The notes below the pieces were generated by a model. The model was not told where the DNA came from. It saw only the letters and a program-made list of their open reading frames with translations, and did no database searches. From positions 1-39,480 of the forward strand of contig JAADDY010000043.1 in assembly GCA_013153725.1 (NCBI GenBank): a stretch of DNA of 39,480 nt, given 5' to 3'. The stretch comes from Thermodesulfobacteriota bacterium (lineage in GTDB: Bacteria; Desulfobacterota; Thermodesulfobacteria; Thermodesulfobacteriales; Thermodesulfatatoraceae). Both the position numbers and the translations under genes were made by a program. Positions 1 through 28,427 of this stretch are shown piece by piece (the stretch's first letter is position 1; each line of letters starts with the position of its first letter).

Positions 1-6
1 AGGCAT

Positions 7-345
7 TTAAAAGCTCCCCGCTTTCTCGAGCTTTACTTCTTTTTCTTTGTTGGCTTCAGCCAGAAATCTGGCGCACCACTCTTCACCCTTACGAGAGCGG
101 AAACAGACCCTGACCCATGAGCTCTCTTTTGGGCCCAGATCCACCCTGATCGTGAGACTTTTCCCTGGCCAAATGGATCTTCCCTCCGGGAAGTCCACCC
201 GCACCTTTCAAGGCTTGCGAACATCAGAAAGCCACAAGCGATGGGAAGACGGGTTAACAAGCTTGACTTCTACGACCTCCGCAAAAGCCAAGCTGACCGA
301 GAGAAACAGCCCGCACAAAAACACCCCCAGTGTCTTTTTCATCAT
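7..345 (-). pseudogene. Small secreted protein gene interrupted by one in-frame TGA (208..210): either point-mutated pseudogene or recoded (readthrough/Sec) gene
   Basis: Minus strand GAAGGAGG RBS then ATG at 345: MMKKTLGVFLCGLFLSVSLAFAEVVEVKLVNPSSHRLWLSDVRKP*KVRVDFPEGRSIWPGKSLTIRVDLGPKESSWVRVCFRSRKGEEWCARFLAEANKEKEVKLEKAGSF*. Signal-peptide-like N-terminus. The frame is unbroken on both sides of the single TGA. The 7..204 track ORF is its second half. Confidence 0.6.
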
Positions 346-356
346 CAGACCTCCTT

Positions 357-1751: not shown

Positions 1752-1825
1752 TTTTCCTCCTTTTACGGTTGCCTTAATCTTAGCAAGTATGGCAAATTTT
1801 GCATGAATACCCTTAGGAGGCAAAA

Positions 1826-2047
1826 ATGTTAGAAGGACTTTTCGTGAATCTTATTCCCCAGGAACTCCTGGCGGTTTTAGCCTGCCCCAAATGTAAAGGA
1901 GATCTCGTACTCGAAGAAAAGCTCTCGGGGCTCATTTGCCAGAAATGCGCTCTACTTTATGAAATAAGGGACGGAATCCCCATCATGCTTGTCGAAGAAG
2001 CCAAACCCCTTCAAGAAGCGCCAAGTGCCGAAGAAAAAGATGAGTGA
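1826..2047 (+). CDS. Trm112-family zinc-ribbon-like protein
   Basis: LLAVLACPKCKGDLVLEEKLSGLICQKCALLYEIRDGIPIMLVEEA matches the Trm112/UPF0434 pattern (CPxCKG...LxCxxC...YPIRDGIPVML). Confidence 0.88.
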   Translation: MLEGLFVNLIPQELLAVLACPKCKGDLVLEEKLSGLICQKCALLYEIRDGIPIMLVEEAKPLQEAPSAEEKDE

Positions 2048-2567
2048 ACCAACACCGCCGAAACCAGCTCAGCTCTTTTTCAGCATCTTTTCTGCAAGGG
2101 AGGATCTCATCGAAACCGCCATCAGAGAACTTGAAGGATGTCTGGGGCCCAGAGAATTCGAGAGCCCGCTCCTTAACTTCGATAAGACCAGCTATTATGA
2201 AAAGGAGTTCGGCGGGGGTCTGGTGCGGCGCTTTGTGTTTTTTGAGAAACTCATTCCTCAGGAGAAGATCGTCCCCATAAAACATCTGGCCTACAAAATC
2301 GAAAAAAAGCACTCTCGCGACGGTGCTCGCACCGTAAACATAGACCCGGGCTATCTCCTCCTGGAACGTCTGGTTCTGGTAACCTTCAAAAACTTCTCCC
2401 ATCGCATCTATCTGGGAGACTATGTCTATGCGGAAGTAACCCTCCTCTTCAGCAAGGGGGAATTTCAACCGTTGCCCTGGACTTATCCTGATTATGCTGA
2501 CCCTGAAGCCCAGAAAATCTTCATTGAAGCCCGAAACCGCTACCGGGACAAACTCAAACGATGCTAA
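2040..2567 (+). CDS. DUF4416 family protein
   Basis: MSEPTPPKPAQLFFSIFSAREDLIETAIRELEGCLGP...YYEKEFGGGLVRRFVFFEKLI...NIDPGYL resembles DUF4416. Start at 2040 preferred over 1989. Confidence 0.8.
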   Translation: MSEPTPPKPAQLFFSIFSAREDLIETAIRELEGCLGPREFESPLLNFDKTSYYEKEFGGGLVRRFVFFEKLIPQEKIVPIKHLAYKIEKKHSRDGARTVNIDPGYLLLERLVLVTFKNFSHRIYLGDYVYAEVTLLFSKGEFQPLPWTYPDYADPEAQKIFIEARNRYRDKLKRC

Positions 2568-3529
2568 ACGACGCTTTCGGACGCCAGATAGATTATCTGC
2601 GGGTTTCGGTTACCGACCGCTGCAACCTGCGCTGCCTCTACTGCAGCAGCAAAGACCAGTTCGCCTGGCTCCCTCCGGAAGAAATCCTCACCTACGAGGA
2701 GCTTCTGCGGGTGATTCGCATAGGGTTAAGACTCGGGATTCGCAAGATTCGCCTTACCGGAGGCGAGCCCCTGGTCCGCAAGGGACTTTTGGATTTCATC
2801 GCCAGGGTCTCTCGACTTGAGGGGCTTAAAGACCTTTCTCTCACCACGAACGGGATTCTTCTGGCTGAGATGGCGGGTGCCCTCAAAGAGGCGGGGCTCA
2901 GACGGGTGAACATAAGCCTTGACACCCTTCGACCCGAGCGCTACGCCCGCCTTTGCGGGCGCCCCTATCTGGAAAAGGTCCTGCAAGGGATAGAAGCCGC
3001 CCTTAAAGCCGGCCTGCATCCCGTAAAGATCAACACGGTGGTCATGAAAGGGCAAAATGATGACGAGCTCGAAGACCTGGCCCGGCTCACCCTCAAGGCC
3101 CCCCTGGAAGTGAGGTTCATCGAGTTCATGCCCGTGGGAGAAGGGGCTCCCTGGCAAAAAGAGGCCTTTCTCTCCGCCCGCGAGATCAAGGAACGCCTCC
3201 TTTCTCTTGGGGATTTGAAGCCCACCTCTTCAATAGGTGCTGGGCCAGCCAAAACTTACGCCTTTCCCGGCGCACCCGGAAAGATCGGTTTTATCACCGC
3301 CATGAGCGAGCACTTTTGTGAGCGCTGTAACCGCCTCCGCTTGACCCCGGAAGGAAAACTGAGACCATGCCTTTTTTCAGACCAGGAGTTCGATTTGAAA
3401 CCTCTTCTGCGAAGCCACGCCGGGGATGAAGCCCTCGCAGAGGCCTTTTTCTCCGCCCTGGCGCTCAAACCAGCCTCTCGCTTCAAAACCCGTATCCCGC
3501 GCCGCCTGATGCGCAGCATTGGTGGTTGA
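2561..3529 (+). CDS. moaA: GTP 3',8-cyclase (molybdenum cofactor biosynthesis protein MoaA)
   Basis: Radical SAM motif CNLRCLYC; DAFGRQIDYLRVSVTDRC; RLTGGEPLVR; C-terminal CERCNRLRLTPEGKLRPCLF. Confidence 0.97.
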   Translation: MLNDAFGRQIDYLRVSVTDRCNLRCLYCSSKDQFAWLPPEEILTYEELLRVIRIGLRLGIRKIRLTGGEPLVRKGLLDFIARVSRLEGLKDLSLTTNGILLAEMAGALKEAGLRRVNISLDTLRPERYARLCGRPYLEKVLQGIEAALKAGLHPVKINTVVMKGQNDDELEDLARLTLKAPLEVRFIEFMPVGEGAPWQKEAFLSAREIKERLLSLGDLKPTSSIGAGPAKTYAFPGAPGKIGFITAMSEHFCERCNRLRLTPEGKLRPCLFSDQEFDLKPLLRSHAGDEALAEAFFSALALKPASRFKTRIPRRLMRSIGG

Positions 3530-3632
3530 CCTCCTTCTTCTCTTTCTTAATTTGGAGAAAACAAAAAAGTCTCTTGCCAAAGAGCTATTATTCCGATAAT
3601 CGGTGGTAGCTAATTTGAAGGAGGTGAAAGGA

Positions 3633-4064
3633 ATGCGCATTCCAGAAGATCGGCTCTATTCCGAAAATCATCTCTGGGTCAAGAAGAAGCGGGGCAACAC
3701 CGCCCTTATTGGCATGACAGACCTTGGACAACTAAAATTAGGTGAAATCATCGATATCGAGTTACCTGACGAAGGAGACGAACTCATAAAAGACGAAGTC
3801 TTTGGCAGCGTAGAATCGGCTCAAGGGGTGTTTGATCTGGTGGCCCCTGTCTCAGGAGAAGTGCTTGAAATCAATGAAGATCTCCTCGACGCCCCGGATA
3901 TCATCAACGATGATCCCTACGACGAGGGCTGGATTGTTAAGGTCCGGCTTTCCGATCCCGACGAACTCGAAGAACTCCTCACGGCTGACGAATACGAAGA
4001 AGTCTCAGCCGGAGAGGAAATTCCTCTGGAAGAAGACGACTTTGATTTCGAGGAAGAGGAGTAG
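3633..4064 (+). CDS. GcvH-like (glycine cleavage H-type) protein lacking the canonical lipoyl lysine
   Basis: MRIPEDRLYSENHLWVKKK...ALIGMTDLGQLKLGEIIDIELPDEGD...FGSVESAQGVFDLVAPVSGEVLEINEDLLDAPDIINDDPYDEGWIVKV aligns throughout with GcvH. The usual VESVKA is VESAQG. Acidic C-terminal tail. Confidence 0.85.
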   Translation: MRIPEDRLYSENHLWVKKKRGNTALIGMTDLGQLKLGEIIDIELPDEGDELIKDEVFGSVESAQGVFDLVAPVSGEVLEINEDLLDAPDIINDDPYDEGWIVKVRLSDPDELEELLTADEYEEVSAGEEIPLEEDDFDFEEEE

Positions 4065-4066
4065 AG

Positions 4067-4981
4067 ATGCGGGTCTTCATGTTTCCCGGACAGGGTTCTC
4101 AATATGTAGGGATGGGAAAGGCGGCTTATGAAAGCTCTGAAGCAGCCCGAAAGGTATTCGAAATTGCCGAAGAGATCACCCGCATCCCCCTGAGAAAGCT
4201 CTGTTTCGAAGGCCCTCTCGAGGACCTCACCCGCACCCTAAACCTTCAACCCGCTCTTACAGCGGTCAATCTGGCGGTCTTTCACGCCCTGGAAGAACGA
4301 AACTTCGGAGCCGAAATCTTCTGCGGGCACAGCCTGGGAGAATATAGCGCCCTTTACGCCAGCGGCGTCATAAGCCTTGAAGATACCTTTCGCCTCGTGC
4401 TCAGGAGGGGTGAACTCATGGAAGAGGCTGCCAGGCGCTTCCCTGGCGAGATGTACGCCGTGATCGGGCTTCCCCGGGAAAAGCTCGAAGAGATCGTCGC
4501 CCGCGCGCAGGAACGCGGGGTGGTAGCCCTTGCGAACCACAACAGCCCGGTTCAAATCGTCATTACCGGAGAAAAGGAAGCCGCGGGTCTTGCAGCAAAG
4601 CTTGCCAAGGAGGCCGGAGCCAAGCGCGTGGTAAAACTCAAGGTTAGTGGCGCCTATCACAGCCCCCTGATGAAAGAAGCGGCCCGTGAATTCCAAAAAC
4701 TTTTGAACGAAATTCCCTTCCAAAAACCACAAAAACACTTTTTCTCAAACGTCTCCGCCCAAAGAGAAGAAGATCCTTCGCGCATCAGGGATCTCATGGG
4801 CAAACAGATAGAAAGCCCGGTAAGATGGGTGGAGGAAATCGAAAACATCTTCGCTTTTGGGGGACGAGAATTTGTGGAAGTTGGTCCCAAAAACGTCCTG
4901 GCAGGTCTGGTCAAAAAAATTCTTCCTTCAGAAGAAATCTCAGTTCGGACAATTGAAGACCCGAAACTTCTAGAAAATTAA
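4067..4981 (+). CDS. fabD: Malonyl-CoA:ACP transacylase
   Basis: FMFPGQGSQYVGMG, active-site GHSLGEYSAL, VSGAYHSPLM, VGPKNVLAGL. Confidence 0.96.
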   Translation: MRVFMFPGQGSQYVGMGKAAYESSEAARKVFEIAEEITRIPLRKLCFEGPLEDLTRTLNLQPALTAVNLAVFHALEERNFGAEIFCGHSLGEYSALYASGVISLEDTFRLVLRRGELMEEAARRFPGEMYAVIGLPREKLEEIVARAQERGVVALANHNSPVQIVITGEKEAAGLAAKLAKEAGAKRVVKLKVSGAYHSPLMKEAAREFQKLLNEIPFQKPQKHFFSNVSAQREEDPSRIRDLMGKQIESPVRWVEEIENIFAFGGREFVEVGPKNVLAGLVKKILPSEEISVRTIEDPKLLEN

Positions 4982-5016
4982 GTTTCAAACCTTATTTTCC
5001 GAATATTTTTTGCAGT

Positions 5017-6033
5017 ATGAAGAAAAGCCGTCTTTCCATACCGGATTTGTTGCCAGAACTCCCCGAGTATCTCTTTTTAATCTCTCCCGATTTTCGCATC
5101 CTCTGGACCAACAAAAAAGCGGCTTCTCTTCTGGAAGGCCCGGAAACACTTTGTTTTGAAGCCGTACACGGCCGAAAGGAGCCTCCCCCGGGTTGCCCGG
5201 CCTTGAAGGCCCTGACGGAAGGGCGCCCGGTACAGGCTATCCAGAAGGCCGAGCGCCTCCAGAAAGATTTCTATGTCAGCGTCGTTCCCATAAAGGAGGA
5301 AGACAAGATCACCGCTCTCTGGCACCTGGCGGTAGACGTGACCTCAAATCAAGTCACCGAAAGAGACCTATCTTCCTACACTTACGAAATCATAGGTTAT
5401 CTGGCCGCAGGATTGAGCCATGACCTCAAAAACATGCTCACCGCCGCCCTGGGGGAGCTTCAGGTCCTCACCCTGATGGCTGAGAATCAGCCTCACCTCA
5501 AGAGACGTTATCAGAAATTGGCCAACATCCTGCAGGAGATCGTCTCCTTCAGCCAGAAATTGTGCTCTCTGGGCAAGACCAAGAGCCAACCCGAGCTTCT
5601 CAACTTGAACGAAGTCTTATCTGAACTTAGCAACCTCATGAAAGCCCTGACCCCCAAGAGGATTCAACTTCAGTTCATCATAAACCCCTATGTGAAACGG
5701 GTTTATATGAACCGTGCCATGTTAGAACAAATCATCCTGAACCTCTTCCTGAACGCCCTTCACGCCATTCCAGAGACGGGAAAAATCACCATATCCACTT
5801 CCCAGGAAGAAAACTTTGCCGTCCTCACCATCGAAGATACCGGAACGGGCATGAAACCAGACCTGGTCAAGTGCATTTTTGACCCCTACTTTACCACCAA
5901 AGAAGAAGGGTCCGGGCTGGGGCTGGCCCTGGTCAAACGCTGGGTGGAGGAAGCCGGGGGACGAATAAAAGTCTTTACCGAAGAGGGGCTCGGAAGCCGC
6001 TTCGAAGTCTGGCTCCCCACCGTGGACCACTAA
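5017..6033 (+). CDS. PAS-like sensor histidine kinase
   Basis: N-terminal PAS-like segment, phosphoacceptor region LSHDLKNMLTAAL, HATPase motifs (NLFLNALHAIPETG, IEDTGTGMKPD, GSGLGLALVKRWVEEAGG). No receiver domain. Confidence 0.9.
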   Translation: MKKSRLSIPDLLPELPEYLFLISPDFRILWTNKKAASLLEGPETLCFEAVHGRKEPPPGCPALKALTEGRPVQAIQKAERLQKDFYVSVVPIKEEDKITALWHLAVDVTSNQVTERDLSSYTYEIIGYLAAGLSHDLKNMLTAALGELQVLTLMAENQPHLKRRYQKLANILQEIVSFSQKLCSLGKTKSQPELLNLNEVLSELSNLMKALTPKRIQLQFIINPYVKRVYMNRAMLEQIILNLFLNALHAIPETGKITISTSQEENFAVLTIEDTGTGMKPDLVKCIFDPYFTTKEEGSGLGLALVKRWVEEAGGRIKVFTEEGLGSRFEVWLPTVDH

Positions 6034-6902
6034 AGATCACCCCGCAGGAAATCTTTCACCGCCTCAAAAAAAAGCCCCTCAAAACGCCCGCCAAGGGCAC
6101 GTCTACCGAAGACGTAATTTATCTCATTCAGAAGCACCTCGGTTTCCGTCACCAGAAAATCTACCGCCGCAAGGTCGATGCCGGTTTGCCGGACGAGTTT
6201 TTCCACCAGCTTGAGGGCCTCTTCTTCCAGCCTTTCAGACGGAGAAGCAACCAATCTCCCACCCTGCACGAGATTTCCTCGAAAATCATCCCCCTTCTGG
6301 CGCCAGAAGGGGAGTTTTTGGCGGCCAAAGATAACGACCCTCAAATCGTAAGAAGAGGGAACGAACTCCTGCAAAAGGAAGCCAAACCGCCCTGTACGCT
6401 CGCGCTCCTTGAGAAGAGACAGGACCTTTTGCCATTGATTTTCATCCTGAAGCAGGAAGATCCCTTGACCTTCGTGTTCGTCGTTAACTTTCAGCACCAG
6501 GGGGAAAGCAAGCTCCACCGGCCTTGCTCCGGGATGAGGACCCAGGGAGGCTATCTTGGGCACCAGCACACTTCTGGGATGCGGCAGACCAAGGGACCTG
6601 AAAAGAAGAACCTGCCCGTCCTTCCCGGGAAAATCCAAGCGGGCGTCGTAGTTCGGAAAGGAAAGGAGCCCCCTTTTGCGGGCATACCGGTAGAAGCAGC
6701 CAGGGAAGACCTGGGGCCAGATCACCGCCTCCGCCTCTTCCAGCGCGGCCAACACCTCTTCGTCGAGGGCGGTGAAGGCCCAGAAGTTGAAATGGGCCTT
6801 CACCAGAGGGTGAAAAGAAACGACTCTCTTACCATCAAGAGTGCTTATATTTAGTTCGGCTGACAAAAGAGACTCCACGGGGAGGTTTTTGGATGGAGGC
6901 AA
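6030..6902 (-). CDS. ATP-grasp domain protein (RimK/glutathione synthetase-like)
   Basis: PLVLKVNDEHEGQGIFLLQDENQW...FLLQEFVPSSYDLRVVIFG...DLAAVDFLVTETEVLLNEINYV has ATP-grasp core organisation. The start is uncertain because it overlaps the divergent gene. Confidence 0.75.
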   Translation of the reverse strand: MPPSKNLPVESLLSAELNISTLDGKRVVSFHPLVKAHFNFWAFTALDEEVLAALEEAEAVIWPQVFPGCFYRYARKRGLLSFPNYDARLDFPGKDGQVLLFRSLGLPHPRSVLVPKIASLGPHPGARPVELAFPLVLKVNDEHEGQGIFLLQDENQWQKVLSLLKERERTGRFGFLLQEFVPSSYDLRVVIFGRQKLPFWRQKGDDFRGNLVQGGRLVASPSERLEEEALKLVEKLVRQTGIDLAAVDFLVTETEVLLNEINYVFGRRALGGRFEGLFFEAVKDFLRGDL

Positions 6903-8179
6903 TTATCCTGGCAGCGGGATTGGGAACACGCCTGCGGCCTCTTACGGAAAATTTCCCAAAACCTCTCCTCAAGGTCGCTGGAAGGGAGCTCCTCTATCGC
7001 CACCTTCACCTCCTCTCCGAAGGACCTATCGAACATTTTATCATCGTCATCAACCCGCAGCACGAAGCATTTTACCGGGAGTTCCTGGCAAAACATCCCC
7101 GATTCTCCTGTACCCTGGTCAAGAACCCTCACCCGGAGAGGGGTAACGGCTATTCCTTCTTCCTGGCCAGAGATCACGTCTCAGGCCCCTTTGTGCTTAC
7201 CATGGGTGACCACGTCTACGAAAAAGACTTTGTGAGGGAAGCTCTTGGCCTCAACGGCCTGGTCGTAGATCGAGAAGGGCGTTTCATCGACCCGCAGGAA
7301 GCCACCAAAGCCCTCTGCCAGGGAGGACGTGTTGTCTCCCTCGGGAAGGATCTCTCTTCTTACACAGGCTTCGACACCGGCTTCTTCATCCTGGAGCCAG
7401 GCGTATTTTCCACAGCCGAAAAACTCTTGAGAGAGAAGCAAAAAGTAAATCTTTCCGAGATCATGGAAAAGGCTCAGATACCCTGCAGTGAGCTCTCAGG
7501 CCGTTTCTGGATGGACGTGGATACCCCGCAAGATTTGCGACGGGCCACCAAACTCTTGATAAAGGCCGCGGTCAAGGAAAGTGGAGACGGTTTCATCTCT
7601 CGCCACCTAAATCGCAAGGTCTCCACCTGGTGTTCGAGCTTTCTGGTGGATTATCTCTCTCCAAACGCCGCCACTCTCCTTACCTCTTTCCTCGGTCTTT
7701 TGGCGGCCTCCCTACTCTACTGGTCTCCCAAGGCAGCGGCCCTTCTCTATCAGTTGAGTTCGATGCTAGATGGTATAGACGGAGAAATCGCCCGGGCAAG
7801 TCTTCGGGAAAGCCCTTTTGGGGGATGGCTTGATTCGGTCCTCGATCGGTTTGTCGATTTTGCCTTTCTCCTGGGGCTCTATCTCTTGCTAAACCCTGTT
7901 TCCCCCTGGCAGCAGGCGGTGGCCCTCCTGGCCTTCTTCGGCTCACTCATGGTGAGTTACACCGCCGAAAGATTCAAAGGGGCCTTCGGGCGCGACATCT
8001 ACTCGGAGATCCCCCTTTTGAGGAAACTTCCCGGCAAGAGGGACGAAAGGGTCTTTTTCATCATGGTTTGCGTGCTTTCAGGGCATCTTTGGGAGATTTT
8101 CTGGGTCCTCGCCTTGGTTACCAATCTTCGGGTTTTGCTCACCTTGATCCTGGTAGCCAGAAAGAAGGCCCGAGGTTGA
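6893..8179 (+). CDS. Bifunctional nucleotidyltransferase / CDP-alcohol phosphatidyltransferase (IPCT/DIPP-synthase-like)
   Basis: N-terminal MEAIILAAGLGTRLRPLTENFPKPLLKVAG (NTP transferase); C-terminal DGIDGEIARASLRESPFGGWLDSVLD (CDP-alcohol PT signature). Confidence 0.88.
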   Translation: MEAIILAAGLGTRLRPLTENFPKPLLKVAGRELLYRHLHLLSEGPIEHFIIVINPQHEAFYREFLAKHPRFSCTLVKNPHPERGNGYSFFLARDHVSGPFVLTMGDHVYEKDFVREALGLNGLVVDREGRFIDPQEATKALCQGGRVVSLGKDLSSYTGFDTGFFILEPGVFSTAEKLLREKQKVNLSEIMEKAQIPCSELSGRFWMDVDTPQDLRRATKLLIKAAVKESGDGFISRHLNRKVSTWCSSFLVDYLSPNAATLLTSFLGLLAASLLYWSPKAAALLYQLSSMLDGIDGEIARASLRESPFGGWLDSVLDRFVDFAFLLGLYLLLNPVSPWQQAVALLAFFGSLMVSYTAERFKGAFGRDIYSEIPLLRKLPGKRDERVFFIMVCVLSGHLWEIFWVLALVTNLRVLLTLILVARKKARG

Positions 8180-10260: not shown

Positions 10261-10336
10261 TGGAGCGGGAGACGGGACTTGAACCCGCGACATCCACCTT
10301 GGCAAGGTGGCGCTCTACCAACTGAGCTACTCCCGC
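10261..10336 (-). tRNA. tRNA-Gly (GCC)
   Basis: Reverse complement GCGGGAGTAGCTCAGTTGGTAGAGCGCCACCTTGCCAAGGTGGATGTCGCGGGTTCAAGTCCCGTCTCCCGCTCCA folds as a cloverleaf. 7-bp acceptor stem, anticodon loop CTTGCCAA, GGTTCAAGT T-loop, encoded CCA. Confidence 0.96.
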
Positions 10337-13408: not shown

Positions 13409-14461
13409 TTGCTAGGTGTCAACAACGATAGATCCCAAAATTATGCCTTTTGGAGTGATTACCGAAAAGATAAACGATCAGGCAAAAAATTTGGTAGGAG
13501 GCCTTTTTTGGGAAAACTTCACTGCACCTGGCAGGCCCCGCAAGATTCAGAAGAAGAGGCTTCCCTAGAAGGGCTAGATTTTTCGGGAAAGGACCTGAGC
13601 GGTGAAGATTTAAGCGGCGCCAACCTGAGGAAAGCAAAGTTCTTCCGGGCCAATCTTCGCGGAGCCATCCTGACGGGAGCTGATCTTACCGGAGCAGATT
13701 TCACAGGCGCCAACCTTGAGGGAGCAAATCTCGAAGGGGCCAAAGCCGAAGCCGCAGGCTTTGGCATGGCCAATCTCAAGGGCGCAAGACTCTTTCACGC
13801 CGACCTTCGCCACACCACTTTCACCAAGGCCAACCTGGAGGGAGCAGACCTGGGGTGTGCCGATCTTTCCCACGCAAGACTTCGAGAGGCCAACCTCCAG
13901 AGGGCCGATTTTACTTCGGCCAATCTCCAGGACGCACACCTCAACCTGAGCGATGTCTCCGGGGCCATCTTCAAGGACGCCGACCTGAGAAAGGCCCATT
14001 TGAGGATGCTCAAAGGCTACAAATCTGCCAACTGGATAGGGGCTGACATCCGAGATATCAACTTTGCCGGGGCCTATCTCATAAGACGCCACATCCTCGA
14101 CGAGAACTATCTCGAGGAGTTTCGCAAGCAGGGCAAATGGGCCCAGATAGTCTATTACCTCTGGTGGCTCACCTCAGATTGCGGGCGAAGCCTCAAGCGC
14201 TGGTGTATCCTCATCGCCATCCAGGCCCTCATCTTTGCCGGCCTTTACCATTTTGTTGGGGTCGATTACGGAAAGTACCCCACTCCTCTCTCACCCCTCT
14301 ATTACAGCATCGTCACCCTTACCACCCTGGGGTATGGAGACGTGATTCCCAATTCCATGCCCGGACAAATCCTTGCCATTTGCGAAGTAATTATGGGCTA
14401 CGTCATGCTAGGCGGGCTTTTAGCCATATTTACCAACCGTATTGCGAGGAGGGCGGACTGA
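13409..14461 (+). CDS. Pentapeptide-repeat protein fused to a two-TM potassium-channel pore domain
   Basis: More than 20 A(D/N)LxG-type pentapeptides (SGEDLSGANLRKAKFFRANLRGAILTGADLTGADF...), then two hydrophobic segments flanking SIVTLTTLGYGDVIPNS (selectivity-filter motif). N-terminal start uncertain. Confidence 0.87.
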   Translation: MLGVNNDRSQNYAFWSDYRKDKRSGKKFGRRPFLGKLHCTWQAPQDSEEEASLEGLDFSGKDLSGEDLSGANLRKAKFFRANLRGAILTGADLTGADFTGANLEGANLEGAKAEAAGFGMANLKGARLFHADLRHTTFTKANLEGADLGCADLSHARLREANLQRADFTSANLQDAHLNLSDVSGAIFKDADLRKAHLRMLKGYKSANWIGADIRDINFAGAYLIRRHILDENYLEEFRKQGKWAQIVYYLWWLTSDCGRSLKRWCILIAIQALIFAGLYHFVGVDYGKYPTPLSPLYYSIVTLTTLGYGDVIPNSMPGQILAICEVIMGYVMLGGLLAIFTNRIARRAD

Positions 14462-15362: not shown

Positions 15363-15437
15363 TCCCGGGTCGTCTAATCGGCAGGACATGGGGTTTTGGC
15401 CCCCACGGTGGTGGTTCGAGTCCACCCCCGGGATCCA
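15363..15437 (+). tRNA. tRNA-Gln (TTG)
   Basis: TCCCGGGTCGTCTAATCGGCAGGACATGGGGTTTTGGCCCCCACGGTGGTGGTTCGAGTCCACCCCCGGGATCCA. Acceptor TCCCGGG/CCCGGGA, anticodon loop TTTTGGC, GGTTCGAGT T-loop, encoded CCA. Confidence 0.94.
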
Positions 15438-19029: not shown

Positions 19030-19827
19030 ATGCGCAACCTCAAACTCACCATCGCCTATGATGGTACCAACTATCTCGGTTGGCAAAGGCAAAGGGTGGG
19101 ACCAACCATCCAGGGAATCCTCGAAGAGACGATTGCTCGCCTTGTAGGGCACAAGGTTAAGCTCCGGGCCGCCGGACGTACCGACGCCGGGGTCCACGCC
19201 CTAGGGCAGGTGGCCAACTTTTTGACCACCAGCAAGATCTCTCTCCCCGACCTTCACCGGGCCTTAAACGCCCTCCTTCCCAAGGATATCGCCATCGTGA
19301 AGATCGAAGAGGTGCCCATCAAGTTCAACGCCCAGTATGACGCCCGCTACAAGACCTATTTCTACCAGATCTACAACCATCCCATCCGAAACCCCATCTG
19401 GCGCCTTTACTCCTGGTGGGTCCCTCAAAAGCTCGATCTTGAAGCGATGAAGACCTGCCTCCCCCTCTTTGTGGGGCAGAAGGATTTTGCCAGCTTTCGC
19501 AAGGTGGGAAGTGACATCAAGACCACGGTACGCACTGTCTTTCGGGCCGAACTCAAGCGCGCCGTAGGTATCGCCGGGATGATCCGGTTTGAGATTTCGG
19601 CTCGGGGATTTTTGCGCTATATGGTAAGAAATATCGTAGGTGCCTTGGTAGAAGTGGGGTTGGGACGGCTAAGCCCCGAGGAGCTTGCCGAAATATTTGA
19701 AGCCAAGGATCGAAGCCTCGCGCCACCACCCGCCCCACCCCAAGGGCTGTTCTTGAAAGAAGTGGTCTACGAAAAAAGGAGGCCCAGCCGTGAAGGAAAA
19801 ACTAGCAACCAGGGTTCGCCAACTTAA
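19030..19827 (+). CDS. truA: tRNA pseudouridine(38-40) synthase
   Basis: MRNLKLTIAYDGTNYLGWQRQ...LRAAGRTDAGVHALGQVANF...FLRYMVRNIVGALVEVGLG. Confidence 0.97.
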   Translation: MRNLKLTIAYDGTNYLGWQRQRVGPTIQGILEETIARLVGHKVKLRAAGRTDAGVHALGQVANFLTTSKISLPDLHRALNALLPKDIAIVKIEEVPIKFNAQYDARYKTYFYQIYNHPIRNPIWRLYSWWVPQKLDLEAMKTCLPLFVGQKDFASFRKVGSDIKTTVRTVFRAELKRAVGIAGMIRFEISARGFLRYMVRNIVGALVEVGLGRLSPEELAEIFEAKDRSLAPPPAPPQGLFLKEVVYEKRRPSREGKTSNQGSPT

Positions 19828-20992
19828 ACCTTCCGCCACCCTGGCCATCAACGCCAAGGCCAAAGCACTCAAAGCTCAGGGGATCGACATCATCAACCTT
19901 TCCGCCGGGGAACCAGATTTCGACACCCCGGAACACATCAAAGAAGCCGCCATCAAGGCCATCCGTGAGGGTTTTACCCGTTACACCCCGGTGGCAGGAA
20001 TTCCCGAACTTCGCGAAGCCATCGCCACCCAGATTCAAAAAGACTACGGGCTTTCTTACACCCCGGAAGAGGTGGTGGTGAGCTGCGGGGCCAAACAGGC
20101 CCTCTTCAACCTCGCCCAGGCCCTCTTCGAAGAGGGAGACGAAGTCCTCGTCCTGGCCCCTTACTGGGTTTCTTACCCTCCCATCGTGGAACTCGCCGGG
20201 GCAAGACCTGTCATCGTGCCTTCGGAGAAGGAAAACCTCTTTGAGCCGGAGCTCTCGGCCCTTGAGAGAGCCATTACTCCCAAGACCAAGGGCCTCATCT
20301 TGAACAGTCCTTCCAACCCCACGGGCCAGCTCTATAGCCAGAACTTCTTGAAAGGGGTAGCGGAACTTGCCAAGCAACATGGCTTCTTCATTATCTCGGA
20401 CGACATTTACGACAAGCTGCGCTTCGACGGCAGGGGGCCGGAAAACATTCTCACCGTGGCACCGGAGCTGCGAGAACAGACGATCATGGTAAACGGAGTC
20501 TCCAAGACTTACGCCATGACTGGCTGGCGGATCGGCTGGGCGGTGGGCCCCAAAGACATCATCGCCGCCGTCTCACGCATCCAGGGGCAGAGCACCTCCA
20601 ACGCCACTTCTATAGCGCAGAAAGCAGCCCTCGAAGCACTCTGTGGCCCGCAGGACTGCATCGTCGAAATGAGAGAGGCTTTCAAAAGACGGGCCACGCT
20701 CCTCTATCAAAAGCTCAAAGAGATTCCCGGCCTTGATCTCCCCAAACCCCAGGGGACTTTCTACGCCTTTGTGGATTTCTCCGCCTACTACGGGCGACAG
20801 GCTCCCGGAGGCACGACCCTCGAAGACTCCCTCACCATGTGCGATTACCTCCTAGAGGAGGCCAAAGTGGCCACGGTACCCGGAATAGCCTTCGGGGACG
20901 ATCGTTGTCTCAGGATTTCCTTTGCCAATGCCGATGAAGAAATTGAAAAGGGGGTCTCTCGTATCGGAGAAGCCTTAAAAAAACTAGCTTAG
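19790..20992 (+). CDS. Class I pyridoxal-phosphate aminotransferase (aspartate aminotransferase-like)
   Basis: LKPSATLAINAKAKALKAQGIDIINLSAGEPDFDTPEHIK, NSPSNPTGQLY, PLP-lysine region NGVSKTYAMTGWRIGWAVGP. GTG start overlaps truA by 38 nt. Confidence 0.95.
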   Translation: MKEKLATRVRQLKPSATLAINAKAKALKAQGIDIINLSAGEPDFDTPEHIKEAAIKAIREGFTRYTPVAGIPELREAIATQIQKDYGLSYTPEEVVVSCGAKQALFNLAQALFEEGDEVLVLAPYWVSYPPIVELAGARPVIVPSEKENLFEPELSALERAITPKTKGLILNSPSNPTGQLYSQNFLKGVAELAKQHGFFIISDDIYDKLRFDGRGPENILTVAPELREQTIMVNGVSKTYAMTGWRIGWAVGPKDIIAAVSRIQGQSTSNATSIAQKAALEALCGPQDCIVEMREAFKRRATLLYQKLKEIPGLDLPKPQGTFYAFVDFSAYYGRQAPGGTTLEDSLTMCDYLLEEAKVATVPGIAFGDDRCLRISFANADEEIEKGVSRIGEALKKLA

Positions 20993-21001
20993 GGGTGTCA
21001 T

Positions 21002-23062
21002 TTGCTCACAATCTTTCTGCTGTGGGGGCTTTTGACCTTTTTTCTCCCGACTTTTGGCTGGGGGCATGAAGCCAAGCCCGGAGCCGTTCTTGAAAGCTTC
21101 CTTTCCAGTGCCACCGAAGTAGCCACCTTCAGCGGTTTCAACATCGATCAAATCCCTTCCTCTTTCACCATTTTCGACCGCAAAATGATCGAACGCACCG
21201 GAGCCACCACCATAGCCGAGCTCTTGCGTTTTGTCCCCGGGCTCGAGGTCATTCGAGAGAACAACGGTACCTATCATCTCATCGTCCGCGGAAACTATTC
21301 GGACCGCAGGGTTCTGATTCTCTGGGACGGTCAACCCTTGAACCACTTGCTTCTCAGAAGAGCTTTGAGTTTTGTGGGAGCCCTTCCGGTGGACATCCTG
21401 GAGCGTATCGAGATCTCCAGAGGCCCTTCTTCGGCGGTTTATGGCTCTTATGCCGTAGGAGGCGTGATAAACCTTGTCCCCCGACGCTGGAAGAATAGCG
21501 GGGAGATCGGCGGAGCCTTGGGACATTTCGATACCGGACGGGGGTTCATCTCCGGAGGTTTCATAAAAAACACCTGGGAGTTTCAGTTCAGTGCCGGAAA
21601 GAGCACCTCAAACGGAGATCGCTTTCACGTAAAGGATGCCGCCGGCATCCCCGGTACGGCAGACACCCATTTCGATACCAACTGGCAGGAGTTCCGGCTG
21701 GCCTGGAAGGGGTTGCGTTTGAAGATGTTCCGCTTCGACGTCACTCTTTCTCATTACTACGGTCTTTCGGATCGCCTTGGTAGAAGCAATGACCCCGAAA
21801 ACCACTACAAACAATTCGGCGGGCAGGTAACTTACGATTTCGAAATCGCCAAAGAAACCACCGGGCATCTCTATTTCAACTGGCGCCAAAACATCCTCGA
21901 TTACGGGACCTTTTACGTTTTTCACCCCGCCTCCAAAGAAATTCCCCCTGTAAAGAGATTCCTCTTGCGCTTTCCCGATCCCTATGACGCTCCTACCCTG
22001 GCTCACGAAAAGAGTCGTCTGAGGGAGATCGTTTACGGCTTCAGGTTGAAAACGAAGTGGCAGACGCATTCCTTGCGTTTGGGAGTAGAGTTTCTGGAAA
22101 ACGGTATCCGCTCCTCCAAACTCCTGGCCAATCGTTCTCTACCGGAGTTTCGCCCCCTACCCACCCTTGAGAGACAACACGACCCCTGGCCGCCAAAGAC
22201 CGAGAGGATGTGGGCGGTCTACTTTCAGGACGAATGGGAACTCGGACCCCGTGACGAACTCAATCTGGGGCTGCGCTACGACAAATACAACGGCTTCAAC
22301 GGGCAATTCAGCCCTCGCATCGTCTGGATACACCGTTTCACCCCGAAACTGATTTCAAAATTCATCTACGGGCATGGCTTTCGGATCCCGGATCTCGATG
22401 CCCTCTACGACGACCACTCCCCCCTGGTGGTCGGGAACCCGGATCTCGATCCTGAAAAACTCGATTCTCTGGAACTGGTCCTCATCTGGAAACCCAATCC
22501 CAAAAACCGATTGAGCCTCAGCCTCTTCCGTATGTGGCTCAGGGATGTCCTCGGACGCCGAAATCCAGTGGGCATAGGAGGATGGACCTACCAACAAGGG
22601 GGAGACGAAGATGTCGTAGGTGGCGAAATCTCTTACCACTACCGGGGTGTTCACTGGGATATCTATCTTTATGGGAGCTACCAGTGGGGAGAAAACGAAT
22701 TTGACGAACCGCGCCCCTACGTGGCCAACGTCTTGGCCGGAGGTATCATTTCCTACACCTTCGGTTCCCTTCCTTTGGAGATAAACCTGGCCTGCAACTA
22801 TGTGGGGCCTCGCTGGCGCGAGAAATTCAACCCCGTCCGTGGCACCAACACCTACATTCCAGACCCTCGAGACAAACTTGACGGTTACACCAACGTCAAC
22901 CTCAAAATAATCTACGACGTCACCTCCAAGATTTCGGCCTGGTTTGGAGTCACCAACCTCTTCGAGGATGATATCCGCTACCCTTCTTCTTGGGGAGGAA
23001 TTCCGGACGATTATCAGGAAAATGGGCGTTACCTTGAGATGGGGCTTCGGATTCGATTTTAG
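21002..23062 (+). CDS. TonB-dependent outer-membrane receptor
   Basis: Hydrophobic leader, plug domain (GATTIAELLRFVPGLEVIRENNGTYHLIVRGNYSDRRVLILWDGQPLN...ERIEISRGPSSAVYGSYAVGGVINLV), beta-barrel with C-terminal YLEMGLRIRF. Confidence 0.94.
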   Translation: MLTIFLLWGLLTFFLPTFGWGHEAKPGAVLESFLSSATEVATFSGFNIDQIPSSFTIFDRKMIERTGATTIAELLRFVPGLEVIRENNGTYHLIVRGNYSDRRVLILWDGQPLNHLLLRRALSFVGALPVDILERIEISRGPSSAVYGSYAVGGVINLVPRRWKNSGEIGGALGHFDTGRGFISGGFIKNTWEFQFSAGKSTSNGDRFHVKDAAGIPGTADTHFDTNWQEFRLAWKGLRLKMFRFDVTLSHYYGLSDRLGRSNDPENHYKQFGGQVTYDFEIAKETTGHLYFNWRQNILDYGTFYVFHPASKEIPPVKRFLLRFPDPYDAPTLAHEKSRLREIVYGFRLKTKWQTHSLRLGVEFLENGIRSSKLLANRSLPEFRPLPTLERQHDPWPPKTERMWAVYFQDEWELGPRDELNLGLRYDKYNGFNGQFSPRIVWIHRFTPKLISKFIYGHGFRIPDLDALYDDHSPLVVGNPDLDPEKLDSLELVLIWKPNPKNRLSLSLFRMWLRDVLGRRNPVGIGGWTYQQGGDEDVVGGEISYHYRGVHWDIYLYGSYQWGENEFDEPRPYVANVLAGGIISYTFGSLPLEINLACNYVGPRWREKFNPVRGTNTYIPDPRDKLDGYTNVNLKIIYDVTSKISAWFGVTNLFEDDIRYPSSWGGIPDDYQENGRYLEMGLRIRF

Positions 23063-23071
23063 AGGCAAAAA

Positions 23072-23641
23072 GTGGGCAGGAAGATCCTTCTCGGAACGAT
23101 CATTGGACTCTTCTTAATGGCCTCCAAGGCCCATCCCCGGACCTTGGTAACCATAGAGTCAGAGAAAGCCCGTCTCACCCTGGCCCTCCTTTCCCGTCTG
23201 GTGAGGCTCGAGAAAAATTTTAAAGACCATCTCCCCCTCCGGGTGCTTGTCATCCTTCCCCAGACCAAGACCGCCTTTCAGGATCAGAACATCGTCAATG
23301 AGGCAGTGAAGGACTTTTTCTTGGAAAACCAAGAGTTCCAGGCGACCTTCGTGAAAGACCCCCAGGAGGCCCTCACCCTTCTTGAGAAGGATGACTTCGA
23401 TATTCTCTATGTAGCGGGGCCTCTTCCAAAACTGAAACAAATCCTGGAGAAGGCCATAGCAAAAAAAGTCCTGACCATTTCTCACCTCCCTGAGCTCCTG
23501 GAGGCGGGGCTTGCCCTCTCCCTCGATCTGGATCGCCGAAAGGCCTGCATCGTGGTAAACAAAGAAACCTGGAGAAAGCTGGGGTTGGAATTTCCACCAG
23601 AGGTAATCCAAAAATTCTGTTTCATATCCTCTAAGAAATGA
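23072..23641 (+). CDS. YfiR/DUF4154-like periplasmic protein
   Basis: N-terminal signal-like hydrophobic stretch ([21 protein letters not shown]); [72 protein letters not shown] fits the YfiR pattern (ILYV...LTVSD...F..NG..I.L....R..F.IN...A...GL..S..LL). Confidence 0.7.
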
Positions 23642-25515
23642 TCTTCCGAAAAGGGCGTCTCTTTCAGATCAAGTTTCTCTTCGTGGCGGCGATTGTATTT
23701 TCTCTGGCCATCTCCTTCGGGGCCACCCTCTGGGGAACCTACGTGCTCCGCCAGGAACTCCTGCGTGAAAGAGAAGAGACCTTGAGACTTCTCATAAAAC
23801 ACACGGCCGAAGTCCTGAAACCGCACCTCAAATTCAAGGTGAGGAAAGAGATCTCTCGTATTCTGGAAGAACTTCTCCAGTTCGATTTCATAAACGGAGT
23901 AAGGGTCACCTGGAAGGAACCTCCCATCTACCAGGACATCAGACACCTGGACATCCTCCTGGGAGAAAAGACCTCTCCTGCCGTTCAAACTCTCTCCGTG
24001 CAGAAGGGCAATCTCAACGAAGGGAAAATTATCACCTTTCCGTTGAAAGACGGAAAAGAAACCCTGGGTTACCTGGAAGTGGCGGTGGACGATAGCCTGC
24101 ACCAGAAGATTATACAAAAGGCGCTCTTCAACTTTTTGCTCATAGGATTCCTCCTCTCGAGCTTATTGTGCGGAATCCTCTATCTCTACTATCACTTCGT
24201 AACCATGCCGATTCTGGATCTGGCAAGCCACATCAAGGAGCTCCAGGAAAAATCCAAAGAAGGCAACCTGAAACCCTTTCCCGAGCTTCTGGCCCCTGAA
24301 GAGATAAAGAACCTCATCAGGGTGTTCAACGAACTCATCAAACGCATAAACATCTCTCAGGAAAATCTGAAAAACACGATGGAACAATGGCGCATCGAAG
24401 CTCACCGCGCCGAGCAAGCAAGCCAGGCCAAAACCAAATTTCTGGCAAACGTCTCTCACGAGATTCGCACCCCCATCACCGCGGCCCTGGGAATGGTAGA
24501 GCTCCTGAAAGACTCCCCTCTTACTCCGGAACAGAGAGAACAGCTCTCTCATCTGGAAAAGTCCCTTGAAAATTTGAGAGAGCTTTTGAACGAAACCCTG
24601 GATTTTGCCAAACTCGAAGAAGGAGCTGTCATCCTCAAGGAAGAACCTTTTGATCTCAAAGCCCTGCTGGAAGAATGTCTCAAACTCTTTATCCCCGAAA
24701 TGGAAAGGAAAGGGCTTCGCTACGAAATCAAGGTTCCCGAAGGATTGCCGCAATTTTTGGGCGACCGGGCCAAAATCAAACAGATCATCCTCAATCTTTT
24801 GAGTAACGCCGTAAAGTTCACCGAACGAGGCAAAATCACTCTGGAAGCCGTCCCCCTCAAAAAGGGCGAAAATTTCTATCACTGGCAAATAGCCGTTCGC
24901 GATACCGGACGAGGGATAACCGAAGAAGATCTCGAAAAGATCTTCTTACCATTTGAGCGCCTGGAGGAAAGCTTCGACAAGTTCTATTTTGGCTCCGGTC
25001 TCGGGCTTGCCATTGCCAAGCGTTTGGCCAAACTCCTGGGTGGCAAACTCTGGGCCGAAAGTTATGGTTCCGGCAAGGGAAGCACTTTCTATCTCGAGAT
25101 CCCTCTCAAAGTCTACGATCTGGAAAAGGAGGAAAAGAGCAACCTTCCCGAGAAACTATCGGGGAAGGTCCTCCTTGCCGAAGACAACCCGGTAAACCAG
25201 CTTTATTTTCGCAAGGCGTTAGAGAGGTTGGGGCTTGAAGTTACCCTGGCCCGTGACGGCTATGAGACTCTTGAGATCGCCCGTAAAGGGTCTTTCGATC
25301 TCCTCCTTCTGGACATCCGAATGCCCGGAATAGACGGGCTTGAAGTGGCTCGTATCCTCCGGCGGGAAGGTTATTCCGGGCCCATCCTTGCCCTCACCGC
25401 CCATGTGGTAGAAGAAATCGAAAAAGAGGCCCAGAGGGCCGGTCTTGACGGCTTTATTACCAAGCCCGTTACCCGCCAGGAACTTGCCAGGCGTCTGGCA
25501 AAATGGCTTTCTTAA
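23638..25515 (+). CDS. Hybrid sensor histidine kinase / receiver protein
   Basis: TM - periplasmic region - TM - HAMP-like linker, H-box [23 protein letters not shown], HATPase ([39 protein letters not shown]), C-terminal receiver [11 protein letters not shown]...[16 protein letters not shown]...LTAH...KPV. Confidence 0.96.
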
Positions 25516-25580: not shown

Positions 25581-28427
25581 ATGGCGGAAAAAACCGACTG
25601 GAAGGAGACCCTCAACCTCCCGCAGACCGAGTTCCCCATGAAGGCCAATCTGGCCAAACGGGAGCCAGAATTTCTGAAGTACTGGGAAGAAATCGACCTC
25701 TACCGCAAAATGCTCGAACGTCGCAAGGGCGCTCCGCTCTTCGTGCTCCACGACGGCCCCCCTTACGCCAACGGCCACATCCACATGGGAACCGCACTCA
25801 ACAAGGTGCTCAAGGACTTCATCATCAAAAGTCGACGCATGGCTGGTAACAACTGCCCTTACGTCCCCGGATGGGATTGTCACGGGCTGCCCATCGAGCT
25901 CAACGTGGAAAAGGAACTCAAGGTAAAACGCGGGGAGCTCCCCAAGCTCACCATCCGGAAACACTGCCGGGAATACGCCAAACGCTGGATCGAGATCCAG
26001 AGGGAAGAATTCAAGCGCCTGGGGGTCATCGGCGACTGGGAAAACCCCTATCTCACTATGAGCTACGACTATGAGGCCACCATCGCCCGCGAATTCGTGC
26101 GCTTCCTGAGTGAAGGCTACGTCTACCGCCGCAAAAAACCCGTCTACTGGTGCATCCATTGTGTTACCGCCCTGGCGGAGGCAGAAGTAGAGTACGAACC
26201 CCATCGCTCGCCGTCCATCTACGTGAAGTTCCCCCTGAAAGAGGACGCCCTTAAGGTCCTCCCGGAAGAAGTCCGGAAGCTTCCCGTCTCCATCGTGATC
26301 TGGACCACCACGCCCTGGACCCTTCCGGCCAACCTGGCGGTTGCCCTGCACCCTGAATTCGACTACGTGGTGGTGGAGCTTGACGGCGAGGCTCTCCTCC
26401 TGGCCGAGGGAAGGCTTTCGGCCCTGGCAGCCGAGCTGGGGCTCGAAAAAGTGCCCCCCATCCTTTGCCGCGTAAAGGCCCAGGAACTCGAAGGCAAACA
26501 CGCCGCCCACCCCTTCCTGCCCCGGGAGTCTCTCATCGTGCTTGCGGATTACGTAACCCTCGAGGCCGGGACGGGCTGCGTCCACATCGCCCCGGGCCAC
26601 GGTGAGGAAGACTACGAAACCGGGCTCCGCTACGGCCTTGAGGTCTATTCTCCGGTAGACGCCGAGGGGCGCTTTGAGAAAGACCTCCCGGAGATCGGCG
26701 GCGAGAACATCTACCAGGCCAACGAAAAGATCATCGCCATCTTGAAAGAAGCGGGCCGCCTCCTTCACGTGAGCGAGATCGAACACAGCTACCCCCACTG
26801 CTGGCGCTGCAAGAAGCCCGTCATCTTCCGGGCCACGGAGCAGTGGTTCATCTCCATGGAGGCCCACCGTTTGCGCGAAAGGGCACTTGAGTGGATCGAA
26901 AGGGTGAAGTGGATCCCGCGGTGGGGAAAGGAGAGGATCCGGAGCATGGTGGAGAGGCGGCCGGACTGGTGCCTCTCCAGGCAAAGGGCCTGGGGGGTAC
27001 CAATCATGGTCTTCGTCTGCGAGGAGTGCAACGAGATCCTCAAGGAAGCCCGCCTTTACGAGAAGGCCATCGAGCTCTTCGAGGCCCACGGAGCCGATAT
27101 CTGGTTCGAAAAGGAGGCTTCCGAACTCCTTCCCGAAGGCACCACTTGCCCCCGCTGCGGAAGCCGCTCTTTTCGCAAGGAAGAAGACATCCTCGACGTC
27201 TGGTTCGACTCCGGCGTTTCCTTTGCCGCGGTCCTCGAAAGGAGGCCAGAGCTCAAGTTCCCGGCGGAGCTCTATCTCGAAGGCTCGGACCAGCACCGGG
27301 GCTGGTTCCAGAGCTCTCTCCTTTGCGCGGTGGGCACCCGCGGCCGGGCCCCGTATGAAGCCGTCCTCACCCACGGCTTCGTGGTGGACGGCAAGGGGCG
27401 CAAGATGTCGAAATCTCTGGGGAACGTCATCCCGCCGGAGAAGATCATCAAACGCTACGGGGCCGAAATTTTGAGACTCTGGGTGGCGGCCGAGGATTAC
27501 CGCGACGACATCCGCCTCTCAGACGAGATCCTCTCCCGCCTCACGGAAGCCTATCGCAAGATCCGCAACACCTGCCGTTTCATGCTGGGAAACCTCTACG
27601 ATTTCGACCCGGAGAAAGACCTCGTCCCGCTTGAGAAGCTTCCGGAGTTTGAGCGCTACCTCCTCTTCCGGCTCTCGGGCCTCGTCTCCAAGTGTCTCAG
27701 GGCCTATGAGAGCTACGATTTCCACCACGTAACCCACGGTATTCACCAGTTCTGTGCCGTGGATCTTTCGGCCATCTTTATCGACGTCAGCCGCGACACC
27801 CTCTACTGCGAAGCCCCGGATTCCTTCGCGCGCCGTGCGGCCCAAACGGTGCTCTACCACGCCACGAACGCCATCACCCGCCTCATGGCCCCCATCCTCT
27901 CCTTCACGGCGGAAGAGATCTGGCGCTACCTCCCTGGCCAAAAAGAGGCCGAAAGCGTCCACCTGGCCTCCTTTCCGGAACCACCCCTGCCGCAGGTGGA
28001 GCCCGCCTTTCAGGAAAAGTGGGAAAAACTCTTTGCCCTGCGCTCTGAAATCACCAAGGCCCTTGAAATCGGCCGCAAAGAGGCCAAAATCATCGGAAAC
28101 TCTCTGGAGGCCGCGGTGGTTCTGGCAAGTGAAGACAAAGACTTGAGAGACTTCCTTGCTGAAAACCGGGATCTCCTCACCTATCTGGCCATCGTTTCGG
28201 AGCTCGAGGTGCAGGAAGACGTAAGCCCCGAAGAGGGCGCCGTCTTTTACGAGGGAGAAGAGTTGCCGCTCAAGGTCTTGGTGCGCCGGGCCTCTGGCAA
28301 AAAGTGCGAGCGCTGCTGGAAGTGGAGCCCCACCGTGGGGACCAGAGAAGATCTCCCGGGAGTTTGTGAACGCTGCTACCGGGTGGTGAAGGAAAGATGG
28401 CCGGATCTCAAAGAGTCTTCCTCCTAA
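25581..28427 (+). CDS. ileS: Isoleucyl-tRNA synthetase
   Basis: HDGPPYANGHIHMGTALNKVLKDFI, PGWDCHGLPIE, KMSKSLGNVI, C-terminal zinc site CERCWK...CERCY. Confidence 0.98.
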   Translation: MAEKTDWKETLNLPQTEFPMKANLAKREPEFLKYWEEIDLYRKMLERRKGAPLFVLHDGPPYANGHIHMGTALNKVLKDFIIKSRRMAGNNCPYVPGWDCHGLPIELNVEKELKVKRGELPKLTIRKHCREYAKRWIEIQREEFKRLGVIGDWENPYLTMSYDYEATIAREFVRFLSEGYVYRRKKPVYWCIHCVTALAEAEVEYEPHRSPSIYVKFPLKEDALKVLPEEVRKLPVSIVIWTTTPWTLPANLAVALHPEFDYVVVELDGEALLLAEGRLSALAAELGLEKVPPILCRVKAQELEGKHAAHPFLPRESLIVLADYVTLEAGTGCVHIAPGHGEEDYETGLRYGLEVYSPVDAEGRFEKDLPEIGGENIYQANEKIIAILKEAGRLLHVSEIEHSYPHCWRCKKPVIFRATEQWFISMEAHRLRERALEWIERVKWIPRWGKERIRSMVERRPDWCLSRQRAWGVPIMVFVCEECNEILKEARLYEKAIELFEAHGADIWFEKEASELLPEGTTCPRCGSRSFRKEEDILDVWFDSGVSFAAVLERRPELKFPAELYLEGSDQHRGWFQSSLLCAVGTRGRAPYEAVLTHGFVVDGKGRKMSKSLGNVIPPEKIIKRYGAEILRLWVAAEDYRDDIRLSDEILSRLTEAYRKIRNTCRFMLGNLYDFDPEKDLVPLEKLPEFERYLLFRLSGLVSKCLRAYESYDFHHVTHGIHQFCAVDLSAIFIDVSRDTLYCEAPDSFARRAAQTVLYHATNAITRLMAPILSFTAEEIWRYLPGQKEAESVHLASFPEPPLPQVEPAFQEKWEKLFALRSEITKALEIGRKEAKIIGNSLEAAVVLASEDKDLRDFLAENRDLLTYLAIVSELEVQEDVSPEEGAVFYEGEELPLKVLVRRASGKKCERCWKWSPTVGTREDLPGVCERCYRVVKERWPDLKESSS

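Follow-up and report, generated by a model that had tools for sequence, protein, structure and literature searches.

A TonB-dependent receptor, a YfiR-like protein and a hybrid kinase: a candidate trans-envelope sensor cassette in Thermodesulfobacteriota

The cassette and its three proteins

The stretch of DNA analyzed here (the window) is 39,480 nucleotides long and belongs to a genome of the phylum Thermodesulfobacteriota (assembly GCA_013153725.1, contig JAADDY010000043.1). It carries a cassette of three co-directional genes encoding a TonB-dependent receptor (TBDT), a YfiR-like exported protein (DUF4154) and a hybrid sensor histidine kinase (Table 1). These identities had been assigned in a first-pass annotation made from the sequence alone, and the list of open reading frames (ORFs) and Pfam confirmed all three. 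The trio is probably a relay informing the cell that the receptor has caught its ligand, because dozens of distantly related bacteria have it as well. The order TBDT, DUF4154, transmembrane (TM) transducer is kept on one strand with tight spacing. The YfiR-like and kinase genes overlap by ATGA at 23638-23641, as first annotated, and the gap between the receptor and YfiR-like genes is 9 bp (23063-23071), not 10 bp as given at that time.

The aminotransferase gene upstream and the cassette genes are probably read as one longer transcript, since the aminotransferase stop at 20992 is only 9 bp ahead of the receptor start. Promoter-like sites were not above chance (three found, 2.0 expected). Downstream, lspA comes after ileS. 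Of the genes scanned in the window, none was recognized as a response regulator.

Table 1 Coordinates of the cassette, its flanking genes and the canonical cassette of the same genome and a relative
Feature	Position	Strand	Description
Aminotransferase class I/II, upstream flank of the insertion site	19790..20992	+	Pfam PF00155, synteny
TonB-dependent receptor (TBDT)	21002..23062	+	686 aa; CirA/BtuB/heme-receptor-like plug and barrel, Pfam
Mature receptor N-terminal segment HEAKPGAVLESFLSSATEVATFSG...	21062..21150	+	Putative short helix and TonB-box-like TEVAT
YfiR/HmsC-like (DUF4154) exported protein	23072..23641	+	189 aa; signal peptide at about residues 1-24; PF13689
Hybrid sensor histidine kinase	23638..25515	+	625 aa; Pfam and AlphaFold topology
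Isoleucyl-tRNA synthetase (ileS), downstream flank of the insertion site	25581..28427	+	Pfam PF00133, synteny
Canonical TBDT-YfiR-CHASE8 hybrid kinase cassette	L019 (G000:C74) 1-3653 (same genome); L011 (G005:C47) 3914-7124 (relative)

The receptor matches the plug (PF07715, 71.7 bits) and barrel (PF00593, 124.1 bits) families of Pfam, and since TonB_C and ExbD are encoded in the genome, it qualifies as a TBDT. Among solved chains, the colicin I receptor and BtuB come closest to it. It reached none of the NCBIfam equivalog cut-offs, and Pfam detected no STN domain in it, the plug beginning at residue 49.

The middle protein had been expected to fall into DUF4154/YfiR, and the Pfam check bore this out: PF13689 is matched with 35.7 bits (E 1.1e-8, profile positions 42-139 of 143) against a curated cut-off of 24.9 bits. 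PF13689 is also the best family for the orthologues within the taxonomic family, which score 15-36 bits, some of them under the cut-off. The AlphaFold model forms a single lobe (predicted local distance difference test score 89). In Foldseek, this model, whose input alignment contained YfiR homologues from other loci, matches the YfiR chains of P. aeruginosa (E 2e-5 to 1e-3, TM score about 0.70 by target length). The matches also include PF04392-type proteins, and the fold is likewise near single- and two-lobed binding proteins. A profile of window-type YfiRs places the YfiRs of the cassettes described below top among 3194 ORFs, and hhalign of the window protein with these cassette YfiRs gives E 1.2e-7. 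Judged by sequence and fold, the window protein is homologous to the cassette YfiRs. Searches of PDB sequences with phmmer and the family profile yielded nothing useful, and a plasmid search with the window protein gave no match. The middle gene was also considered as a PF04392 binding protein, but hidden Markov models (HMMs) gave no support: neither the window protein nor any of the orthologues scanned matched PF04392.

The kinase comprises a TM segment, a periplasmic domain (about residues 36-160), a second TM segment, a HAMP-like linker, HisKA, HATPase_c and a receiver, the topology being taken from an AlphaFold model of residues 1-254. H274 and the receiver D559 are both present, and the protein has no Hpt domain. 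A free 108-aa Hpt protein, encoded on another contig and unlinked to the cassette, is a possible next step of the phosphorelay. The periplasmic domain is predicted to adopt a PAS/Cache-like fold: Foldseek of the kinase N-terminus returned WalK-like PAS/Cache folds and, apart from these, only a weak match to a LapD-type output domain. CHASE8 was not matched by the kinase in Pfam. A profile comparison of the full N-terminus with CHASE8 gave E 3.6e-10, which is explainable by the TM and HAMP regions. The assignment of the periplasmic domain to CHASE8 by sequence was set aside as unproven, as its significance vanished with periplasm-only profiles and shuffled controls.

Recurrence of the cassette and the receptor N-terminus

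Within the family, the trio is present in 10/10 genomes examined, always at one chromosomal site, and its conservation is beyond chance. It occurs in all eight species of the genus (8/8) and additionally in two other genera, where DUF4154 has diverged below the Pfam cut-off. Wherever the contig is long enough to show both flanks, the trio lies between the aminotransferase and ileS. In one genome from a different family within the order, this pair is separated by a 20-bp gap and the cassette is absent, which is consistent with its gain (or loss) as a unit. YfiR is among the fastest-changing parts within the family (44-77% identity to the window copy).

The genome has one other DUF4154 gene, in a second, canonical cassette. 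It follows the C-terminal end of a TBDT and precedes a hybrid kinase with CHASE8 (40.6 bits), receivers and Hpt. The whole receptor of this cassette is visible in the genome of a relative (G005), where it scores 506 bits against NCBIfam NF053590 (TOL_0244 family TBDT), below the cut-off of 645. The canonical YfiR-like protein of the window's own genome scores 105 bits against NF053591 (TOL_0243 family YfiR-like periplasmic protein), also below its cut-off of 125. The two NCBIfam families constitute a curated TBDT/YfiR-like pair, and the adjacent locus-tag numbers suggest that the TOL_0244 and TOL_0243 genes are neighbors. In contrast to the canonical cassette, which matches both, the window copy has neither family listed. 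Downstream of the canonical cassette (L019, 3705-8000), TolC, membrane-fusion and RND efflux-like ORFs were recognized by eye.

DUF4154 was found in 68 of the 395 phylum genomes. The neighbor survey covered 82 loci, namely 80 from the phylum and the two canonical copies of the window genus. A TBDT gene stands directly upstream of DUF4154 in 69 of these loci (58/64 genomes), against a chance expectation of 0.13 loci derived from the median of 4.5 TBDTs per genome. The TBDT is downstream in six further loci, and seven have no nearby same-strand TBDT. The complete order of TBDT, YfiR and transducer-kinase is seen at 60/82 loci. CHASE8 is present in nearly all downstream partners (63/65 N-termini), and the TBDT-YfiR-CHASE8 part stays constant while the outputs are swapped (histidine kinase, GGDEF, GGDEF-EAL). 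Outside the phylum, TBDT-YfiR-transducer cassettes were found in Sphingobium, Indioceanicola, Caballeronia and Pseudoalteromonas (alpha-, beta- and gammaproteobacteria), and Pfam confirmed CHASE8 in those of Sphingobium and Caballeronia. The synteny, for which the first-pass annotation had proposed a survey, thus reaches far past close relatives, into three classes of Pseudomonadota. Pantoea has the classical order, YfiR-CHASE8-GGDEF plus OmpA.

Other arrangements were noticed during the survey. At L163 (1-2268) and L167 (518-3202), PF04392 proteins directly precede HAMP-bearing kinases, in parallel to the YfiR-kinase arrangement. At L133 (G300:C34), an 858-aa ORF divergent from a TBDT appears to be a fusion of a DUF4154 region, a kinase core and a GGDEF motif.

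In a phylum-wide alignment of cassette TBDTs, the mature N-terminus is a motif of 32 residues, LTxLSLEELMxIEVTSVSKKPQ. An HMM of this motif, trained on half of the cassette TBDTs, was found in all 31 of the held-out half and in one of 40 other TBDTs from the same genomes, the latter being a weak match. Across the 395 genomes it gave 90 matches, spread over 62 genomes; 77 matches lie no more than 6.5 kb from a DUF4154 gene. TBDT plugs as such are present in 354/395. Only two motif-bearing genomes have no Pfam match to DUF4154. One of them encodes a diverged YfiR after the receptor; the receptor gene of the other is cut off by the contig end. Orphan receptors with the motif are few and occur in genomes whose DUF4154 is elsewhere. 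The motif is not merely the mark of one receptor lineage, because cassette receptors fall in several clades of the receptor tree, although the motif model was itself built from cassette receptors. In one phylum genome of 4.3 Mb (G352), the sole detected TBDT plug belongs to a YfiR cassette, suggesting that this receptor was retained for signaling.

Window receptors form a separate clade of their own. In this clade, the pattern LExFLxxATE[VI]AT, read from the sequences, occupies the place of the cassette motif. The window copy is divergent: its receptor has no canonical motif and its sensor domain is not demonstrably CHASE8 by sequence. It illustrates how far a cassette can drift under retained gene order.

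Co-divergence was examined in 46 triads by distance correlations with a permutation test. YfiR co-diverges with the membrane/periplasmic part of the kinase (alignment columns ~1-240; rho 0.42-0.49, permutation p 0.005), in contrast to the kinase core (rho 0.01-0.16). On the receptor side, it follows the mature N-terminus alone (rho 0.465); the plug gives -0.05 to 0.14, the barrel 0.13-0.14 and the signal peptide 0.04. The co-divergence of YfiR is not explained by GC content.

Known systems, the proposed relay and its alternatives

Like YfiBNR/TpbB of P. aeruginosa and HmsC-HmsD-HmsE, the cassette pairs a periplasmic DUF4154 protein with an inner-membrane transducer whose two TM segments enclose a periplasmic domain. 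The transducer domain of canonical cassettes is CHASE8, as in YfiN, whereas the window sensor domain is not recognizable as such. The outer-membrane partner is a TBDT instead of the OmpA-type lipoprotein YfiB, and no OmpA domain was present in the adjacent window genes scanned. The output of the window cassette is HisKA, HATPase_c and a receiver instead of a GGDEF diguanylate cyclase. Filing it as YfiBNR was ruled out by the lack of GGDEF and YfiB. The structures of YfiR-YfiB are known (PMC4655355). YfiR-YfiN modules without YfiB and with histidine kinase, GGDEF-EAL or chemoreceptor outputs, including those of Geobacter and Desulfobacterium, are described in passages of Malone et al. 2012 (PMC3375315). 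The same exchange of output domains and the same absence of YfiB are seen here; going by those passages, the exchange of a kinase for YfiN is already known since 2012 (PMC3375315). The passages do not mention a TonB receptor, and the receptor association and the N-terminal motif are added here. No description of a link between YfiR-like/DUF4154 proteins and TonB receptors was found in the open-access literature.

In the classic form of cell-surface signaling, TonB receptors rely on the STN domain and on FecR and sigma factors. As in FecA-FecR-FecI, the cassette receptor is proposed to relay ligand occupancy across the envelope. In contrast, the cassette receptor has no STN domain, the relay role falls to a DUF4154 protein, and a kinase is the partner in the inner membrane. 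Neither FecR nor an extracytoplasmic function sigma factor was detected among the adjacent genes scanned. Filing the cassette as FecIRA was ruled out by the receptor without STN domain.

It is fairly probable that the window cassette belongs, as a divergent member, to a widespread class of trans-envelope sensors composed of a TBDT, a YfiR-like protein and an inner-membrane transducer. Its working most likely resembles that of YfiBNR, a TonB receptor serving as the input and a phosphorelay as the output. Upon ligand binding and the action of TonB, the N-terminal segment of the receptor would become exposed to the periplasm. The exposed segment would capture or reposition the YfiR-like protein, by analogy with the capture of YfiR by the outer-membrane lipoprotein YfiB. 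Once captured or repositioned, the YfiR-like protein would no longer act on the kinase through its PAS-like periplasmic domain, and the phosphoryl flow from H274 to D559, an unlinked Hpt protein and an unlinked regulator would then change. The first-pass annotation had proposed both replacements implied here. A TonB receptor in the place of YfiB is strongly supported by the gene association and the cassette-specific N-terminal motif, while we infer every physical contact, the direction of the signal, the sign of regulation, the ligand and the output. A kinase in the place of YfiN is well supported for the cassette class, as the frequency of CHASE8 indicates; in the window copy itself, no sequence tie between the periplasmic domain of the kinase and CHASE8 could be established.

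More tentatively, the N-terminal extension of the receptor (LTxLSLEELMxIEVTS in cassette receptors generally, LExFLxxATEVAT in the window family) might be a signaling element of TBDTs, alternative to STN, which docks the YfiR-like protein upon ligand and TonB exposure. We hold this with some reserve. If true, relays from TBDT through YfiR to a kinase or cyclase would be a second general way for TonB receptors to signal into the cell.

Several results weigh against a relay of this class in the window. The window-type receptors are not matched by the canonical motif HMM. With the periplasm-only segment, hhalign with CHASE8 gives 12.8, when column-shuffled controls reach up to 17.9, and the HMM comparison gives E 61. 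YfiR of P. aeruginosa is reported to have four conserved cysteines, which the window protein does not preserve; its own two cysteines are unconserved through the genus. Finally, the permutations behind the co-divergence are uncorrected for phylogeny.

Alternatively, the YfiR-like protein could itself be the ligand-binding sensor: the receptor would only import a ligand, which the small protein would bind and present to the kinase. Two-lobed binding proteins present ligands to other kinases, and other loci of the phylum (L163, L167) have PF04392 proteins immediately ahead of kinases. The best structural matches of the YfiR-like protein include a single-domain substrate-binding protein of R. marinus (E 2e-8) and two-lobed PF04392 proteins besides YfiR, and the window-type YfiR profile weakly reaches some PF04392 proteins. 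Nevertheless, this explanation is unlikely, given that DUF4154 is the best family of the orthologues, none of those scanned matching PF04392, and that the single lobe has no usual cleft. Moreover, YfiR co-diverges with the receptor N-terminus and not the barrel, and a specialized N-terminus is unexpected in a receptor devoted to transport.

Independent sensing of envelope redox or stress by the YfiR-like protein and the kinase, with the receptor as a regulated target or simply co-transcribed, is quite improbable. According to passages of Malone et al. 2012 (PMC3375315), P. aeruginosa YfiR is able to respond to redox in the absence of YfiB, and the seven loci without a nearby same-strand TBDT would fit such a role. 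However, the receptor stays upstream in 69/82 loci despite varied outputs, the receptors fall in special clades with a cassette-only N-terminal motif that pure co-regulation does not predict, and the window protein has no redox cysteine pairs. That the trio is merely co-transcribed with the aminotransferase and ileS, with no joint function, agrees with the tight co-directional run with housekeeping genes. It is extremely improbable and already contradicted, because many families, as well as four genera outside the phylum, have the trio at unrelated sites, and a second copy is present within the same genome.

Among the outcomes that the first-pass annotation had named as speaking against a relay (no DUF4154 similarity, no synteny beyond close relatives, an unrelated substrate-binding role), none was encountered, and a substrate-binding-like role of the middle protein has been weakened. 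The relay would represent a second, STN-less candidate route for TonB-receptor signaling that is common in the phylum, also occurs in Pseudomonadota and has kinases or cyclic di-GMP enzymes as outputs. What acts upstream of YfiR modules without YfiB had not been answered in 2012; the TBDT is a concrete candidate input, and the 32-residue receptor segment is singled out as a testable element.

Other features of the window

Elsewhere in the window, a pentapeptide-repeat protein fused with an ion-channel domain (PF07885) is encoded at 13409-14461. Rfam identified two tRNA genes, at 10264-10336 (-) and 15363-15434 (+). The latter overlaps the start of an ATP-binding cassette (ABC) transporter ORF called from TTG; therefore, this start was probably set too early.

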